Assembly: GCF_000242635.2 (NCBI RefSeq)
Contig: NC_017770.1
Span: 2,988,669-3,052,668, forward strand
Direction of reading: 5' to 3'
Source: Solitalea canadensis DSM 3403
GTDB lineage: Bacteria; Bacteroidota; Bacteroidia; Sphingobacteriales; Sphingobacteriaceae
DNA: 64,000 bases
Shown here: positions 8,155 through 54,089 of the stretch, piece after piece
How positions within the stretch are numbered: the stretch's first letter is position 1
Layout of the letters: each line of letters starts with the position of its first letter
Notes under the pieces: generated by a model
The model's database searches: none
What the model saw: the letters and a program-made list of their open reading frames with translations, nothing else
What the model was told of the DNA's origin: nothing
Made by a program: the position numbers and the translations under genes

Positions 8155-8529
8155 TTAAGCACACCTATCACAAACTCCCGAAATCCAACAATTAACATTT
8201 TGCGCTGTATAACCAGCAGGCAGTTTAAAAATAACATGTTCGCTCATACATTCCACTTTATTGCATTTCAGGCACCTGAAGTGAAAATGATCATGATCGT
8301 GATGGCCTTCCTTGCATTCGGTACATAAGGCAAAGTAGTTTTTCCCTTCATCCGAAACGATTTTATGCACAATACCATCTTCACAAAAACTATTTAAAAC
8401 CCGATAAATAGTAACCCTATCCACTGTTCCTTTCATTTGCTGCTCAATCATATCCTGACTTAATGCCGAATGGGCATCTTGAAGCATCAACAATATTTCT
8501 TGCTTAGCAGGTGTGTTTCTTCGTTGCAT
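8155..8529 (-). CDS. Fur-family transcriptional repressor, Zur-like
   Basis: 124 residues, with the winged-helix N-terminus of the Fur family (TPAKQEILLMLQDAHSALSQ, VDRVTIYRVLNSFCEDG). The C-terminal dimerisation/metal region is very rich in Cys and His: CTECKEGHHDHDHFHFRCLKCNKVEC and a final CDRC. The paired cysteine knuckles point to a structural zinc site, and the small size fits Zur-like Fur proteins of Bacteroidota. The regulated metal cannot be settled from sequence. Two palindromes in its upstream region (8561-8575 and 8585-8602) suggest autoregulation. Confidence 0.86.
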   Translation of the reverse strand: MQRRNTPAKQEILLMLQDAHSALSQDMIEQQMKGTVDRVTIYRVLNSFCEDGIVHKIVSDEGKNYFALCTECKEGHHDHDHFHFRCLKCNKVECMSEHVIFKLPAGYTAQNVNCWISGVCDRCA

Positions 8530-8560
8530 AATGATTTATTCTTTAAGCCCAACCAATCCC

Positions 8561-8602
8561 TGCAACAAAATTGCATTAATAAAATAATACTGACAAGTAT
8601 TA
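8561..8602. promoter_or_regulatory. Two palindromes upstream of the Fur-like gene (candidate operators)
   Basis: TGCAACAAAATTGCA (8561-8575, arms of 5) and TAATACT-GACA-AGTATTA (8585-8602, perfect arms of 7) lie between the Fur-like gene and the sensor kinase gene. On the minus strand the first overlaps a CAATTTTG -7-like box and the second overlaps a TTG 20 bases upstream, which is a layout suited to repression. Confidence 0.45.
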
Positions 8603-49456: not shown

Positions 49457-50284
49457 TCACAATTCACTTCCACAAAACTTGCAATACTTTGCATCCACTT
49501 CATGGCCTTCCTTATTACAATTTCCACAAACTCTTTTCTCCCCTAACTTATTCCGGTTTCTGAACGCCATTTCAGTTGTCACAATTCCTGTTGGAACAGC
49601 AATGATTGCATAACCACAAAGCATCAGCATTGTTGCCAATAATTTACCCACGGCTGTTGCCGGAGAAATATCACCGTAACCAACCGTTGTAATAGTTACT
49701 ACTGCCCAATAAATACTTTGCGGAATGCTGGTAAACCCATTCTCTCCTCCTTCAATCAGGTACATTAATGAACCTATAATGATGGTGAGGATGATAACAA
49801 ACAACATGAAAATACTAATCTTACGTAAACTGGCGTAGATGGCTGAAATCAAGAAACGACTTTCATCCATAAAATGCCAAAGTTTAAAAATTCGGAAAAT
49901 CCTTAACAGTCGTAGAGCTCTAACTACCAACAAATATTGAGAACCTACAACAAAAAAACTGATATAAGTAGGCACAATTGCTACCAAATCAATTATTCCT
50001 ATAGAACTTACTGCATACGCCATTGGCTTTCGAATGCAGATTAATCGTAGAATGTATTCTATAGTAAATAAAATGGTGAAGAACCATTCAAAACTGTAAA
50101 GTAAATTGCCATATTTCTGATGAATACCCGGAACACTATCCAACATCACCACTACAACACTTAAACAAATAGCAATCAGCAAACAAACATCAAACAACTT
50201 TCCCTTAAAAGTTCCCGATTCGTAAATAATTTCATGAAGTTCGTATTGCCAGTTTTTGAGTGTTCTCTTATTTTCAGGGAGCAT
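49457..50284 (-). CDS. Voltage-gated-type potassium channel with C-terminal zinc ribbon
   Basis: 275 residues. Six TM helices: S4-like LLVVRALRLLRIFRIFKLWHF with regularly spaced Arg, pore helix and selectivity filter TTVGYGD (about residue 200), then S6. The last 45 residues hold a two-knuckle zinc ribbon, CGNCNKEG...KYCKFCGSEL. Conducts K+ across the inner membrane. The zinc ribbon may be a regulatory or assembly domain on the cytosolic side. Confidence 0.92.
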   Translation of the reverse strand: MLPENKRTLKNWQYELHEIIYESGTFKGKLFDVCLLIAICLSVVVVMLDSVPGIHQKYGNLLYSFEWFFTILFTIEYILRLICIRKPMAYAVSSIGIIDLVAIVPTYISFFVVGSQYLLVVRALRLLRIFRIFKLWHFMDESRFLISAIYASLRKISIFMLFVIILTIIIGSLMYLIEGGENGFTSIPQSIYWAVVTITTVGYGDISPATAVGKLLATMLMLCGYAIIAVPTGIVTTEMAFRNRNKLGEKRVCGNCNKEGHEVDAKYCKFCGSEL

Positions 50285-50430
50285 AGTGAGATATAGAATT
50301 GCCGTAAATTTATTGTTTATTTATGTTATTTCAATCAATCTATCCGCTAACACCTAACAAGCTAGTTACAAAGCCCGATTGGTTTATTCAGGATTTGATC
50401 GCTATTTTCGGAACATAATCAAGCATTGCA

Positions 50431-51057
50431 ATGATCAGCATACAATCAGTTAAACAACAGTATAACGGCTCTGTACAAATTGACTTCCGCAATTGGGAAA
50501 TTAACTCCGGAGAGCATTGGCTTATGTTGGGAGGCTCGGGAACAGGCAAAACTACTTTATTACACATCATCAGTGGTTTGTTAAAGCCTACTAGTGGAAG
50601 CGTTAATATTGAAGGTACCGACCTCTATAATTTGAGAGGAGCCGAACTTGATCATTTTAGAGGAAAAAATATTGGTGTTATTTTTCAGCAACCACACCTG
50701 ATAAAAAACCTTTCATTGTTAAACAATGTAATGGCAGCGCAGTATTTCGCCGGATTACCGCAAGATAAAAAACGGGCATTGACAGTGCTAGATTCTCTTG
50801 ACTTGGTCGCTAAAGCCAAATCAATGCCTTCCGAATTAAGCCAGGGACAAATGCAGCGAGTGGCAATTGCACGTGCAATGATTAATCATCCTAAAATTGT
50901 TATTGCAGATGAGCCGACATCAAGTTTGGATGATGCAAATACGGAAGCCGTTTTAAAATTATTGGAAGAACAGGCTGATTATAATAACGCAACATTAATT
51001 ATTGCCACACATGATGAACGTGTAAAAAAACGTTTCGAGAAGCAATATGTACTTTGA
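50431..51057 (+). CDS. LolD/MacB-type ABC ATPase (zinc-linked Zrg-like system)
   Basis: 208 residues. Walker A is LGGSGTGKTT, signature ELSQGQMQRVAIARAM, Walker B VIADEPTSSLD, and switch His in IIATHDERV. Typical small ATPase of FtsX-type (MacB/LolD) exporters, lacking its own membrane part. Downstream by 83 bp is an FtsX permease, then three secreted paralogues. I assign it to that unit. In Proteobacterial Zrg-type operons an ATPase like this one drives a His-rich permease. Confidence 0.9.
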   Translation: MISIQSVKQQYNGSVQIDFRNWEINSGEHWLMLGGSGTGKTTLLHIISGLLKPTSGSVNIEGTDLYNLRGAELDHFRGKNIGVIFQQPHLIKNLSLLNNVMAAQYFAGLPQDKKRALTVLDSLDLVAKAKSMPSELSQGQMQRVAIARAMINHPKIVIADEPTSSLDDANTEAVLKLLEEQADYNNATLIIATHDERVKKRFEKQYVL

Positions 51058-51140
51058 GAGTTTGGGAATTTGTGAATCAGATAATTTGAGCATAATAATT
51101 CAACAATCCGAAACTCGTAACCTGAAACCCTTAATTAAAA

Positions 51141-52466
51141 ATGAATCTTATCAAGCTAAGCTGGTACAATCTTAAAGCCAATATACTCTCTACTCTATTA
51201 AATGTGCTGCTGTTATCTTTTGGTATTGGCATCATTGCATTATTAATGTTGGTTTCAGATCAAATTGGAAAGAAACTGGAAAACAACTCAAAGGGAATTG
51301 ACGTTGTTGTGGGTGCAAAAGGGAGTCCTTTACAGCTTATTTTATCAAGCATTTATCATATTGATTTTCCTACAGGTAATATAAAACTTTCGGAAGCAGA
51401 AGCAATTATGCGCAATCCGTCTGTTAAAATGGCTGTTCCTGTTGGCTTGGGTGATAGTTTTGAACAGTTTCGAATTGTAGGAACCAATCCCAAATTTGCT
51501 GAATTATATGAATTAAAGCTTGCCCAGGGCAAACCATTCGACAGCTTGTTTGAAGTTAATATTGGTGCTAATGTAGCCCGTGTAAAACATTTAAAAGTTG
51601 GCGATACGTTTCATGGCTCACACGGCTTAAGTGCAGGTGGAGAAGAACACCATGAACATGATTATAAGGTTACAGGAATTTTTGAAGAAAATGGATCAGT
51701 GGCGGATAATCTTGTTTTAACTTCAATGGAAAGTATTTGGGGAATGCACGAGTCGGTAGAAACGGCTGATCATGATGCGCACGGACACAAGCAAGGTGAA
51801 ATTGAAACCGCTAAAAAAGATACAGAAGAGGTCGACGAGATGAAATTGGTTCACGATCAGTTTCATGGTGAAGCCCCATTAACACAAACACCAACACCAC
51901 ACTCGGATGAACCGGAAACTGACGATCATGAAATCACAGCTTTATTGATCAAATACCGATCTCCAGTAAGTGTAGTTACTTTCCCTCGATTTATAAATAA
52001 TGAAACCAATATGCAGGCCGCCTCTCCTGCACAGGAAAGTGCACGATTATTCTCACTTATCGGTGTTGGCGTAAACGCTTTACAATGGTTCGCAGGCTTA
52101 ATAATTGTTATTTCAATATTTAGTGTATTCATCAGTCTTTACAATTCATTAAAAGACAGAAAATATGATCTGGCTATTATCAGGACAATTGGAGCTTCCC
52201 GTTCTAAAGTATTCCTTTTAATCATCACTGAAGGCTTGCTTTTAGCAGCAATTGCCACAGTTATTGGCTTGTTGTGGTCGCACGGAGCGTTGGAAATCAT
52301 TGGGAAATATCAGGATGCCGAACAAACTAAGTTAACAGGTTTAGCGTTTGTAAAGGATGAATATAAATTAATAGCCGGAGGATTGATCATCGGATTGATT
52401 GCTTCTGTTATCCCAGCGATACAAGCATACAAAACAGATATTTCAAAAACATTGGCAGAGAATTAA
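51141..52466 (+). CDS. FtsX-type ABC permease with His/Asp/Glu-rich extracytoplasmic insert
   Basis: 441 residues. TM1 is at about 15-37, followed by a periplasmic domain whose start carries IDVVVGAKGSPLQLILSSIYHIDFPTGNI and VKMAVPVGLGDSFEQFRIVG, hallmarks I recall from the permeases of Zrg-type operons. An extra region (about 155-265) is rich in His, Asp and Glu: GEEHHEHDYK, TADHDAHGHKQGEIE, HSDEPETDDHE. Three C-terminal TM helices bear the FtsX motif (LKDRKYDLAIIRTIGASRSK). The acidic His-rich insert suggests metal binding. It pairs with the preceding ATPase. Confidence 0.9.
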   Translation: MNLIKLSWYNLKANILSTLLNVLLLSFGIGIIALLMLVSDQIGKKLENNSKGIDVVVGAKGSPLQLILSSIYHIDFPTGNIKLSEAEAIMRNPSVKMAVPVGLGDSFEQFRIVGTNPKFAELYELKLAQGKPFDSLFEVNIGANVARVKHLKVGDTFHGSHGLSAGGEEHHEHDYKVTGIFEENGSVADNLVLTSMESIWGMHESVETADHDAHGHKQGEIETAKKDTEEVDEMKLVHDQFHGEAPLTQTPTPHSDEPETDDHEITALLIKYRSPVSVVTFPRFINNETNMQAASPAQESARLFSLIGVGVNALQWFAGLIIVISIFSVFISLYNSLKDRKYDLAIIRTIGASRSKVFLLIITEGLLLAAIATVIGLLWSHGALEIIGKYQDAEQTKLTGLAFVKDEYKLIAGGLIIGLIASVIPAIQAYKTDISKTLAEN

Positions 52467-52561
52467 ATCAGTCCATAGTCAATTGACCATAGACCATAGC
52501 TAAAACTGGATAAAAATACCATGGACTATCGACTATGGACCATGGACTCAATCAAACTAAA

Positions 52562-53029
52562 ATGACAAAAAAGAACATATTCACACTCACTTTCATTGCA
52601 GCGGTAACAATTGCCAGCTTATCTGCTAAAGCCCAAAAAGCGGAGCGACCGCCAGAGCATTTGGCAATAAAATCAGCTAGCTGGGATATCATAAATGATC
52701 TTAGCTATAAGATGGATAAAAGCGGCGATTTTGCACCTGTGTTCAGTGATCGGCTTAAAGATGCCAATGGCAAACTGATGGAGCTAAAAGGTTATATTGT
52801 TCCTTTTAAAATGGGAGCAAAACATAAGAATTTCGCGATATCCGTATTACCCATCAGTCAATGTTATTTTTGTGGTACCGGAAATATACCTCCAATGGTA
52901 GAAGTGATCATGAAAGATGCGTTGCCTTATACAGATAAGATCATTACTGTTAAAGGGAAGATAAAGCTAAATGCTGATGATTCCACACATATGGAAATCA
53001 TTCTGGAGCAAGCCGAACAAGTAGATTAA
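52562..53029 (+). CDS. Secreted DUF3299-like CYxCG protein, paralogue 1
   Basis: 155 residues from the ATG at 52562 (MTKKNIFTLTFIAAVTIASLS), with signal peptide ending SAKAQ. Core: LKGYIVPFKMG, then FAISVLPISQCYFCGTGNIPPMVEVIMKD and TDKIITVKGKIKLN. The QCYFCG motif has two cysteines placed like a metal- or redox-binding knuckle. I recognise this as the Bacteroidota version of the DUF3299 proteins found with LolD/FtsX pairs. It is one of three tandem, diverged copies. Confidence 0.78.
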   Translation: MTKKNIFTLTFIAAVTIASLSAKAQKAERPPEHLAIKSASWDIINDLSYKMDKSGDFAPVFSDRLKDANGKLMELKGYIVPFKMGAKHKNFAISVLPISQCYFCGTGNIPPMVEVIMKDALPYTDKIITVKGKIKLNADDSTHMEIILEQAEQVD

Positions 53030-53059
53030 ACGGTTAAAGATTTAATAGTGCCGTTAAAC

Positions 53060-53647
53060 ATGAACTTTTTAGAACAACTGAAGAAAAATAAGTCTGTATT
53101 CCTGTATCTACTAGGGTTACTGGTCATACTCCTTTTGTTTTCAAAAGTGCAATGCAGTTCAATGGGCGAAAACACTTCACCTATTGCCGCATCTTACAAT
53201 AAAACAATAAGTGAAATTCCTGTTCCGAGAGACACTGCTGCTCTACCAGCACACGAACTCCATAATTTGATTACAAGTGAAATCTGGACAAAAATAGCCT
53301 CGTTAAAGTACCGGACTGATACAATTGATGGACAACTATGGCATATTCCTATTTTTACTCCGGAAATTAAAGCATTGGAAGGATCAATTATTCAACTGAA
53401 AGGTTATCTAATTCCATTACAACCGGGAAAGTTCCAGCAACATTTCCTTATTTCTGTTTTACCATTTAGTCAATGTTACTATTGTGGTAAATCTGCAGGA
53501 ATACCGGAAATGGTTGAAGTTGAAATGAATAGTCCGATTAATTATACAGATAAAGTGATTACCGTTAGTGGCATACTCCAGTTAAATGAGTTGGATGAAG
53601 AACATTATGCGCTTCGCTTGGTAGGTACGGAGTATATCGAAAAGTAA
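53060..53647 (+). CDS. Membrane-anchored DUF3299-like CYxCG protein, paralogue 2
   Basis: 195 residues from the ATG at 53060; the GTG at 53048 is a poorer start. A single TM helix (VFLYLLGLLVILLLFSKV, about 13-30) replaces the cleavable signal, so this copy is anchored. A longer N-terminal region of about 70 residues precedes the shared core: LKGYLIPLQPGKFQQHFLI, PFSQCYYCGKSAGIPEMVEVEM, YTDKVITVSGILQLN. The Cys pair is intact. The next gene starts one base after this stop. Confidence 0.78.
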   Translation: MNFLEQLKKNKSVFLYLLGLLVILLLFSKVQCSSMGENTSPIAASYNKTISEIPVPRDTAALPAHELHNLITSEIWTKIASLKYRTDTIDGQLWHIPIFTPEIKALEGSIIQLKGYLIPLQPGKFQQHFLISVLPFSQCYYCGKSAGIPEMVEVEMNSPINYTDKVITVSGILQLNELDEEHYALRLVGTEYIEK

Positions 53648-53648
53648 A

Positions 53649-54089
53649 ATGAAAAAGCTATTAATCCTGACTACCTTACTTTCAAGCAGCTTTATGGTAA
53701 AGGCACAACATGTATCTGACATGATTAAATCTCCTGTTTGGGATATCATCGGAACATTGAAAATAAATACCGTTAACCAAAGCAAACAGGTGGCTGTATT
53801 TCCCCCACAACTTAAATCTCTTGATAATAAGAATGTCACTCTACAAGGTTATATAATTCCTACAGAAGAAGGGATTAAGCACAAACGATTCCTGCTTTCG
53901 ACATTGCCTATTAACCAGTGTTATTATTGCGGTAAAAATGGGATTCCGATTATGATTGAGGTGGAAATGGGAGAAGCCATCGATTTCACTTATAAACCGG
54001 TAATGATTGCAGGCATATTAAAACTTAACTATGCCAATGCAGCTGAAAATATTCCAATTTCATTAGAAAAAGCGAGCCAGTTAAACTAA
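53649..54089 (+). CDS. Secreted DUF3299-like CYxCG protein, paralogue 3
   Basis: 146 residues, signal peptide MKKLLILTTLLSSSFMVKAQ. Core: LQGYIIPTEEGIKHKRFLLST, PINQCYYCGKNGIPIMIEVEMGE, FTYKPVMIAGILKLN. The three copies share the same order of motifs but differ widely, so the duplications are old. All three would act outside the inner membrane, where they could accept substrate from the His-rich permease. Confidence 0.78.
   Translation: MKKLLILTTLLSSSFMVKAQHVSDMIKSPVWDIIGTLKINTVNQSKQVAVFPPQLKSLDNKNVTLQGYIIPTEEGIKHKRFLLSTLPINQCYYCGKNGIPIMIEVEMGEAIDFTYKPVMIAGILKLNYANAAENIPISLEKASQLN

Follow-up and report, generated by a model that had tools for sequence, protein, structure and literature searches.

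A five-gene operon of Solitalea canadensis DSM 3403 probably encodes a Zrg-type ABC machine, of the MacB/LolCDE fold (type VII), that handles periplasmic zinc, most likely under zinc scarcity. It represents a Bacteroidota form of such operons, in which homologous ATPase and permease genes are followed by DUF3299-like proteins, no ZrgA was found, and an acidic, His-bearing disordered insert lies within the permease.

Organization and conservation of the operon

Five ORFs occupy positions 50431-54089 on one strand of the window, the 64,000-nucleotide stretch of DNA that was analysed, and encode an ATPase, a permease and three CxxCG paralogues. The first (50431..51057; plus strand, as for all five) encodes a ZrgC-like ABC ATPase of LolD/MacB type with 208 residues (PF00005, 121.9 bits), and the second (51141..52466) a ZrgB-like, FtsX-type permease of 441 residues with a MacB-like periplasmic domain (PF02687 and PF12704 over cut-off). 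Paralogue 1 (52562..53029; 155 residues) is a predicted exported OB-fold, DUF3299-like protein. Its ORF extends upstream to 52535; the likely true start at 52562 matches the start in relatives. Paralogue 2 (53060..53647; 195 residues) has a strongly hydrophobic N-terminal segment that is probably a membrane anchor, in agreement with the suggestion in a preliminary description of this DNA that one copy is membrane-anchored; the likely start at 53060 was assigned by eye, with a GTG at 53048 as an alternative. Paralogue 3 (53649..54089; 146 residues), also predicted to be exported, is separated from paralogue 2 by one base (53647/53649). The gene order, coordinates and tight spacing first reported are borne out by these ORF positions. 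All three CxxCG copies are present in each of the three other Solitalea genomes searched, and the cluster, whose absence from relatives was to have counted against the preliminary description, is conserved.

The transporter and its insert

LolD and LolCE are the best NCBIfam matches of the ATPase-permease pair, at scores far below the equivalog cut-offs (ATPase, 176.3 versus 307.75 bits; permease, 60.4 versus 362.45 bits). The permease has the FtsX and MacB_PCD domains and the fold that characterize type VII ABC systems, and its structural model matches LolCDE, MacB and HrtBA, with LolCDE ranked first by Foldseek.

The His/Asp/Glu-rich segment originally placed at about residues 155-265 of the permease is real and is sharpest at residues 204-263 (51750..51929, plus strand), which are 12% His and 30% Asp plus Glu and are predicted to be disordered (model pLDDT <50 over residues 207-260). 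In S. canadensis, however, where the peak His count is only 6 per 40 residues, the insert is more acidic than His-rich. The count is uneven across genera: peaks range over 12-20 among 30 Sphingobacterium permeases, 5-16 among 10 from Parapedobacter and only 4-5 among 27 from Pedobacter. The median for 81 related permeases was 10 His per 40 residues, versus 3 for 254 other ORFs of 350-520 aa, none of which reached 8. No insert was found at the corresponding place in three Roseobacter-group ZrgB-type permeases.

The CxxCG proteins

Pairwise identity among the three copies is 41-42% (BLAST E 7e-32, 6e-32 and 1e-30), and 34 alignment columns, the start Met included, are identical in all of them. 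Their common core consists of GY[IL][VI]P, QCY[FY]CG, IPxM[VI]EV and a final G[KI][IL][KQ]LN. The shared motifs noted at the outset are thus real, and the copies are clear homologues, not three unrelated folds. CxxCG itself is invariant in 26/26 and 38/38 aligned members of two overlapping sets.

An AlphaFold model of paralogue 1 (pLDDT 89.2) had as its best structural match PA4066 of Pseudomonas aeruginosa (4hsp; Z 8.4, rmsd 3.5, 103 aligned residues, 16% identity; next match Z 7.2), which also came first by sequence, weakly (E 0.072). With Foldseek, paralogue 1 had no match at E <= 0.001, other OB-type folds appearing among the top 50, and a profile built from the three copies found nothing among PDB sequences. 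Comparison of the CxxCG family with seven DUF3299 proteins by hhalign gave 81.8% (E 1.1e-5), with the Cys motifs out of register. None of the S. canadensis copies reached the Pfam gathering score of 22 bits for DUF3299 (PF11736): paralogue 3 scored 20.4 bits, and paralogues 1 and 2 had no match at E <= 1. Matches at E <= 1 were obtained for 31 of 38 family members (best 5.4e-5, which may pass the cut-off), and none of ten members scanned singly attained 22 bits. A DUF3299 search of the organism's own genome returned no matches and is uninformative, since 14 control genomes were equally blank. The seven DUF3299 proteins carry the motif ACIHxPPPP; ACIHxPPPPxNQ is absent from the three copies, all of which have CxxCG instead. 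Intermediate motifs (CxFH, CYFE and CFFC-PGG) occur in distant relatives from other Bacteroidota classes, where the second Cys can be replaced by His or Glu and the first is kept. Taken together, the predicted fold and the profile comparison argue that the CxxCG protein is DUF3299-like; the proposed link to DUF3299 therefore holds by these two measures, although all three copies fall below the Pfam cut-off.

The copies had been interpreted as a triplication. They are indeed three homologous copies, but this account is too simple, as the tree splits them across genera: paralogue 1 groups with the single Sphingobacterium copy and paralogue 3 with the copy that comes last in Pedobacter operons, while paralogue 2 is confined to a Solitalea-only clade and the first two Pedobacter copies form a younger pair. 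Judged from these trees, which were built by rapid searches and contain unresolved forks as well as long branches, the "triplication" is an old split with separate later additions.

Zrg-type operons among relatives

The S. canadensis operon contains, in order, the ATPase, FtsX/MacB permease and DUF3299-type gene of a Zrg system. Among plasmid-borne relatives of the permease, the highest-ranking ones examined lie in operons of the order Fur-ZrgA-ATPase-permease-DUF3299 or ZrgA-ATPase-permease-DUF3299-DUF3299; tandem DUF3299 pairs are present in Proteobacteria as well. These annotated operons support the kinship with Zrg-type operons that had been proposed in the preliminary description. ZrgA (PF10986) scored over cut-off in none of 395 genomes of the phylum, S. 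canadensis included (four weak sub-threshold matches), a count to be read with the controls: 14 control genomes also gave none, but the model does recognise a Phaeobacter ZrgA, at 165 bits by hmmscan. Nine loci that duplicated named ones, among them L060, a near-copy of L058, were removed manually; of the 92 de-duplicated loci, 80 have one or more CxxCG genes after the permease. The Bacteroidota form has one to four putative CxxC carriers. Apparent "solo" CxxCG genes in some Pedobacter loci proved to be artefacts of an antisense ORF.

Metal-gene neighbours and a palindromic element

The metal context proposed earlier is evident in relatives. Across 27 Pedobacter loci a Fur-family gene was present in 27, MerC in 26 and COG0523 in 18, and these neighbours were confirmed by Pfam in three loci (L034, L042 and L044). 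In the Pedobacter operon MerC and the Fur-family gene, usually with COG0523 adjoining, are preceded by the palindrome AAATGCAAYNNNRTTGCATTT. Its core was found without mismatch in 29/30 regions before MerC and 20/27 before COG0523, often as the same site and partly in regions used for finding the motif, versus 0.03% of letter-shuffled regions. The palindrome was identified by a symmetric EM search whose sole control was two letter-shuffled sets per test; exact counts exceeded letter shuffles for the 6-5-6, 7-4-7 and 7-5-7 forms only. At <=1 mismatch it occurs in only 4 of 81 ATPase promoters, and the EM search found other palindromes in those of Sphingobacterium and Parapedobacter. A relaxed box, WTGCAAN5TTGCAW, occurred 40 times in ten genomes versus 21 for a reversed control, and 5 versus 8 times (no excess) in that of S. 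canadensis. Four of nine site regions examined lie before metal-interest or cluster-family genes (L161, L166, L167 and L169); the remaining five (L162-L165 and L168) do not.

In S. canadensis the operon is preceded by AACAAN5TTACA (50354..50370), an element found by eye in four Solitalea and, with three mismatches to the palindrome core, a candidate operator at most. The best box match at the operon promoter likewise has three mismatches in S. canadensis and two of three congeners, and one in S. agri. The Fur-family gene of this genome that is closest to the one in Pedobacter operons (8155..8529, minus strand) is 42 kb from the operon and not part of it, and was not found in any of the three Solitalea congeners. 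A perfect core, TGCAAN5TTGCA (8560..8576), lies about 30 bp upstream of it. Among nine loci around Fur relatives the core was upstream of the Fur gene in none and at the gene's end in three, so the S. canadensis site is a single case. MerC and COG0523 genes of S. canadensis are located elsewhere than the operon. Because the operon in Solitalea shows no link to the box or to the regulator, zinc control there is something we only infer. Should the palindrome prove to be a Zur box, it would provide a handle on zinc-limitation control in Bacteroidota; the literature searched describes no Zur box in this phylum, and ZntR, a zinc-excess regulator, is reported in Riemerella.

Mechanism and alternative explanations

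In the mechanism that we favour, the ATPase and permease would assemble into a homodimeric mechanotransmission machine. Zinc would be caught by the disordered insert in place of the His-rich loop of ZrgA, and the CxxCG proteins, two probably soluble and one probably tethered to the inner membrane, would hold or pass the metal at a putative Cys site. ATP-driven motion of the periplasmic domain would load or unload them, and the net result may be uptake, export or local delivery. The zinc reading is weakened by the low His content of the insert in S. canadensis and Pedobacter, and in Solitalea by the poor box match, the absence of the Fur-like gene from congeners, and the location of MerC and COG0523 elsewhere. 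The small share of ATPase promoters with the box, the out-of-register Cys motifs, and the published results on PA4066 crystals and a zrgE knockout given below also count against it.

An unlikely but tenable alternative is a MacB-like exporter that, in zinc-starved cells, would expel a metallophore, a metal complex or a surrogate metal present in surplus; the OB-fold proteins would then serve as its periplasmic adaptors. The MacB/LolCDE fold is consistent with this, and PA4063-PA4066 were proposed, from mutant metal contents, to export cobalt-pyochelin (PMC11481552, accessible portion). Against it, the Vibrio papers, as far as their available text goes, interpret the Zrg system as zinc uptake, and neither MacA nor TolC was recognised among neighbour proteins in a general Pfam scan not dedicated to them. 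A LolCDE-like machine handling lipoproteins or proteins, to which insert and Cys motif would be incidental, is highly improbable: the NCBIfam and Foldseek rankings point to Lol, but the equivalog shortfall, the single permease gene, the DUF3299-like partner and the metal-gene neighbours fit it poorly.

The invariance of CxxCG could also indicate thiol-disulfide partners in a system that protects or reduces periplasmic thiols, and a thioredoxin-reductase-like FAD enzyme adjoins in 3/92 loci. We consider this improbable, as a redox CxxC should not tolerate the His or Glu of distant relatives or the ACIHxPPPP of DUF3299, and the fold is OB, not thioredoxin. MerC, present in 30/92 neighbourhoods, might suggest copper or mercury as the metal; it is named after mercury, and Cys/His sites in general are not metal-specific. 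The COG0523 and Fur-family neighbours, the relatives' ZrgA operons and the Zur control described in the published text available point to zinc and make copper or mercury quite improbable.

Comparison with known systems

To the preliminary statement that no characterised example was known, the literature searched agrees for Bacteroidota; ZrgABCDE and PA4063-PA4066 are, from the accessible parts of the reports, partly characterised. Those parts report Zur control and zinc phenotypes for zrg and PA4063-66, unaffected growth of a zrgE knockout, and PA4066 crystals with no evident zinc binding; they differ on direction, the Vibrio groups favouring uptake and the Pseudomonas group export. The available text of PMC10957091 describes ZepA, another zinc exoprotein, and does not mention DUF3299; that of PMC9976891 and PMC2770081 holds nothing on the CxxCG/DUF3299 family.

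Related operons in Deinococcus radiodurans and in Rhizobium and Paracoccus plasmids open with alkaline phosphatase, which is a zinc enzyme. Their order is alkaline phosphatase-CPFC protein-ATPase-permease, and the CPFC OB-like protein matches the CxxCG family by hhalign (97.1%, E 7.6e-11). Like the S. canadensis operon, they have a homologous permease, with a His-rich insert in two of three, and no ZrgA annotated in the stretch; unlike it, they have the small protein first, just one of it, and alkaline phosphatase. They suggest a client enzyme open to testing. A broader reading, which we regard as a long shot, is that Zrg-type machines are neither uptake nor efflux pumps and would perform ATP-driven periplasmic zinc delivery, from a capture loop to CxxC/DUF3299 OB-fold carriers and on to exported enzymes, with alkaline phosphatase as client in Deinococcus, Rhizobium and Paracoccus. 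The capture loop would then lie within the permease in Sphingobacterium and in the Rhizobium/Paracoccus form; in the Zrg operons of Proteobacteria, ZrgA would provide it.

MacB, LolCDE and HrtBA share with the S. canadensis system the FtsX and MacB_PCD domains and the fold, whereas S. canadensis has a separate ATPase and one permease gene and falls far under Lol equivalog scores. P. aeruginosa PA4063-PA4066 has the same ATPase-permease-DUF3299 order and supplies the best structural match; it differs in having PA4063 (ZrgA) and ACIHxPPPP in place of CxxCG, and Zur control is established there, unlike in S. canadensis. Vibrio ZrgABCDE, in which zrgE encodes the DUF3299 protein, likewise combines an ATPase, a MacB-like permease and a DUF3299-type protein of OB fold within a single operon and, according to the available text, includes a His-rich ZrgA (DUF2796) and ZrgD in a zinc setting. 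In contrast, the S. canadensis operon lacks ZrgA, carries its insert in the permease and has three CxxCG copies, and the Bacteroidota form can be viewed as a natural re-wiring, available in non-pathogenic strains, in which loop, carrier and pump are genetically separable.

A Zrg-type operon with three CxxCG paralogues

The five-gene operon at 50431-54089 (+), which encodes an ATPase, a permease and three CxxCG proteins (copies 1 to 3), is a Zrg-type operon re-wired in Bacteroidota. A zinc role is probable; its mechanism is one that we infer. No described Bacteroidota case was found among the open-access papers listed by the literature searches. The three CxxCG proteins are clear paralogues, as judged from their sequences, with 34 alignment columns identical across all copies and pairwise E values of 1e-30 to 7e-32. 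Copies 1 and 3 have signal-peptide-like N-termini ending in KAQ. Because the N-terminal segment of copy 2 is more hydrophobic (KD mean over 19 residues, 2.42 vs. 1.70 and 1.26) and no good lipobox was seen in it by eye, copy 2 is probably membrane-anchored; the preliminary description had proposed one anchored copy, and that proposal holds as a probability. In one distant genome (locus L049) the third copy likewise has a hydrophobic stretch at its N-terminus, but it falls in a different part of the tree. The stretch between the permease gene and copy 1 (52470-52550) contains short CATAGTC/GACTATGG-type repeats. Adjoining the operon (49457-50284, minus strand) is a gene whose product resembles, by eye, a voltage-gated ion channel and has a C-terminal CGNCN...CKFCG tail.

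The CxxCG proteins are DUF3299-like

Excerpts from published papers on Zrg systems (PMC11481552, PMC9817125, PMC9820375, PMC8561739) describe Zur control and the structures of ZrgA and PA4063, identify the DUF3299 protein PA4066 as 4hsp, and disagree on uptake versus export. PA4066 was the best structural match to an AlphaFold model of copy 1 (pLDDT 89.2) when 999 chains were re-aligned (Z 8.4, next 7.2). It was absent from Foldseek's own top 50, in which no match reached E ≤ 0.001. By sequence, 4hsp ranked first for the CxxCG family profile, weakly (E 0.072), and a seven-protein DUF3299 profile matched the family at 81.8% (E 1.1e-5), in an alignment that did not superpose the two Cys motifs. 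Members from other classes carry the bridging motifs CxFCG, CFFC-PGG, CxFH and CYFE, and the first Cys was retained in those printed. None of the three window copies reached the Pfam DUF3299 cut-off. The link to DUF3299 drawn in the preliminary description is therefore kept as a relationship and not as membership: the proteins are DUF3299-like.

Distribution and copy history

With the three window copies as query, the CxxCG family was found in 16 of 60 relatives, and each of the three other Solitalea genomes has exactly three copies. Family matches occurred in 190/300 genomes of the order and 62/395 of the phylum sample. Among 92 de-duplicated loci, chosen because they carry the family and including many close kin rather than a random sample, the permease was followed by no copy in 12, one in 45, two in 10, three in 24 and four in 1. 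A quickly built 80-row tree placed copy 3 with the final copy of Pedobacter operons (support 98) and copy 1 with the single Sphingobacterium/Parapedobacter copy and the first Pedobacter copies (support 94). Copy 2 formed a clade confined to Solitalea (support 93), and Pedobacter copies 1 and 2 were a younger group. Three homologous copies are present, as first described, but in this tree the "triplication" resolves into an ancient divergence to which further copies were added later and independently. The last-copy class (L054:8992-9441, L067:8998-9444) may be linked to a further family, since it matches DUF1980_C weakly and below the cut-off (E 0.0046 and 0.017).

Neighboring genes and a candidate regulatory site

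Pedobacter loci carry a Fur-family gene (27/27), MerC (26/27) and COG0523 (18/27), typically in the order COG0523 (divergent), MerC, ATPase, permease, two or three CxxCG genes, Fur. In Sphingobacterium and Parapedobacter the operon's neighbors are instead genes for a TonB receptor and for an unassigned exported protein (38/92 loci each). At L036:11680-15001 the TonB-dependent receptor and an exported protein of ~400 aa with no Pfam match lie beside the operon, a candidate outer-membrane uptake pair.

A symmetric motif search yielded AAATGCAAYNNNRTTGCATTT (score 185.7 vs. 41.4 and 44.3 for two shuffles). In counts that include the discovery regions and draw on closely related Pedobacter species, its perfect core, TGCAAN5TTGCA, preceded MerC in 29/30 regions and COG0523 in 20/27, the two often being the same site read in opposite directions; at up to one mismatch it was found in 6/18 regions labelled solo CxxCG and only 4/81 ATPase regions. 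Letter-shuffled control regions contained it at 0.03% (no mismatch) and about 1% (up to one). Sites also occur outside Pedobacter (L034, L042, L044, L064, L074, L122). Of nine opened elsewhere, four precede genes of the following kinds: a lipoprotein-MerC pair, a His-rich protein together with a TonB receptor, a P-type ATPase, or, in the S. canadensis genome itself, the FAD oxidoreductase described below; the other five do not. At L169:2083-4605 the palindrome lies at the junction of a Fur-family gene and a following His-rich P-type ATPase gene. In L219 and L220, from two genera (G006, G018), Fur-like genes that start identically are accompanied by the same 21-bp site and by another identical site nearby; is this a recently exchanged element?

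In the window, a Fur-family gene (8155-8529) has a perfect core about 30 bp upstream (8155-8576 in all), and its product is 34-38% identical to most Fur proteins of Pedobacter operons. The gene is missing in all three congeners, and was therefore gained in Solitalea canadensis or lost in the others. Palindrome sites in the S. canadensis genome did not exceed the reversed control (5 vs. 8). Given these two results, any control of the Solitalea operon by zinc is something we infer from its relatives. Elsewhere in this genome (L161:2673-3634), the palindrome ATGCAATATTGTTGCAT lies 27 bp before a gene for a thioredoxin-reductase-like FAD enzyme, whose family neighbors COG0523, MerC or CxxCG genes in 3/92 loci.

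The permease insert and comparison with known systems

The permease model matches LolCDE, MacB and HrtBA. Its insert (residues 204-263) is predicted to be disordered and is found in all 22 Sphingobacteriaceae permeases aligned, at 18 to 118 residues, and in permeases of further classes. His is strongly enriched in the inserts of Sphingobacterium (12-20 per 40 residues) and of most Parapedobacter (5-16), but weakly in those of Pedobacter (4-5) and Solitalea (6).

The gene for alkaline phosphatase, a zinc enzyme, heads the order alkaline phosphatase, CPFC protein, ATPase, permease in the three records opened from Deinococcus radiodurans (L208:105-4598), Rhizobium (L209:242-4619) and Paracoccus (L210:360-4664) plasmids; PF00245 was confirmed in the first two phosphatases, the third being assigned by annotation. 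The CPFC protein matched the CxxCG family profile at 97.1% (E 7.6e-11). On a Catenovulum plasmid (L207:1433-4721), MerC, a divergent DUF3299 gene, ATPase and permease lie together, so that the MerC link extends outside Bacteroidota.

Phaeobacter permeases were the best plasmid-record matches to the permease, and both Phaeobacter records opened have the order Fur-ZrgA-ATPase-permease-DUF3299; two other plasmid records carry ZrgA with tandem DUF3299 genes. The insert is missing from all four ZrgA-operon permeases read (L200-L202, L211), and the one ZrgA sequence read completely (L201) bears a long His loop. The Bacteroidota form has no ZrgA (none over the cut-off in 395 genomes of the phylum sample) and carries the insert in its permease. 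This suggests that the loop's job may have moved between subunits, with exceptions in Catenovulum (L207; neither insert nor adjacent ZrgA), in the insert-free Deinococcus permease and in Pedobacter, where the insert is short. In a quick permease tree, the Bacteroidota, ZrgA-operon and phosphatase-operon forms separate.
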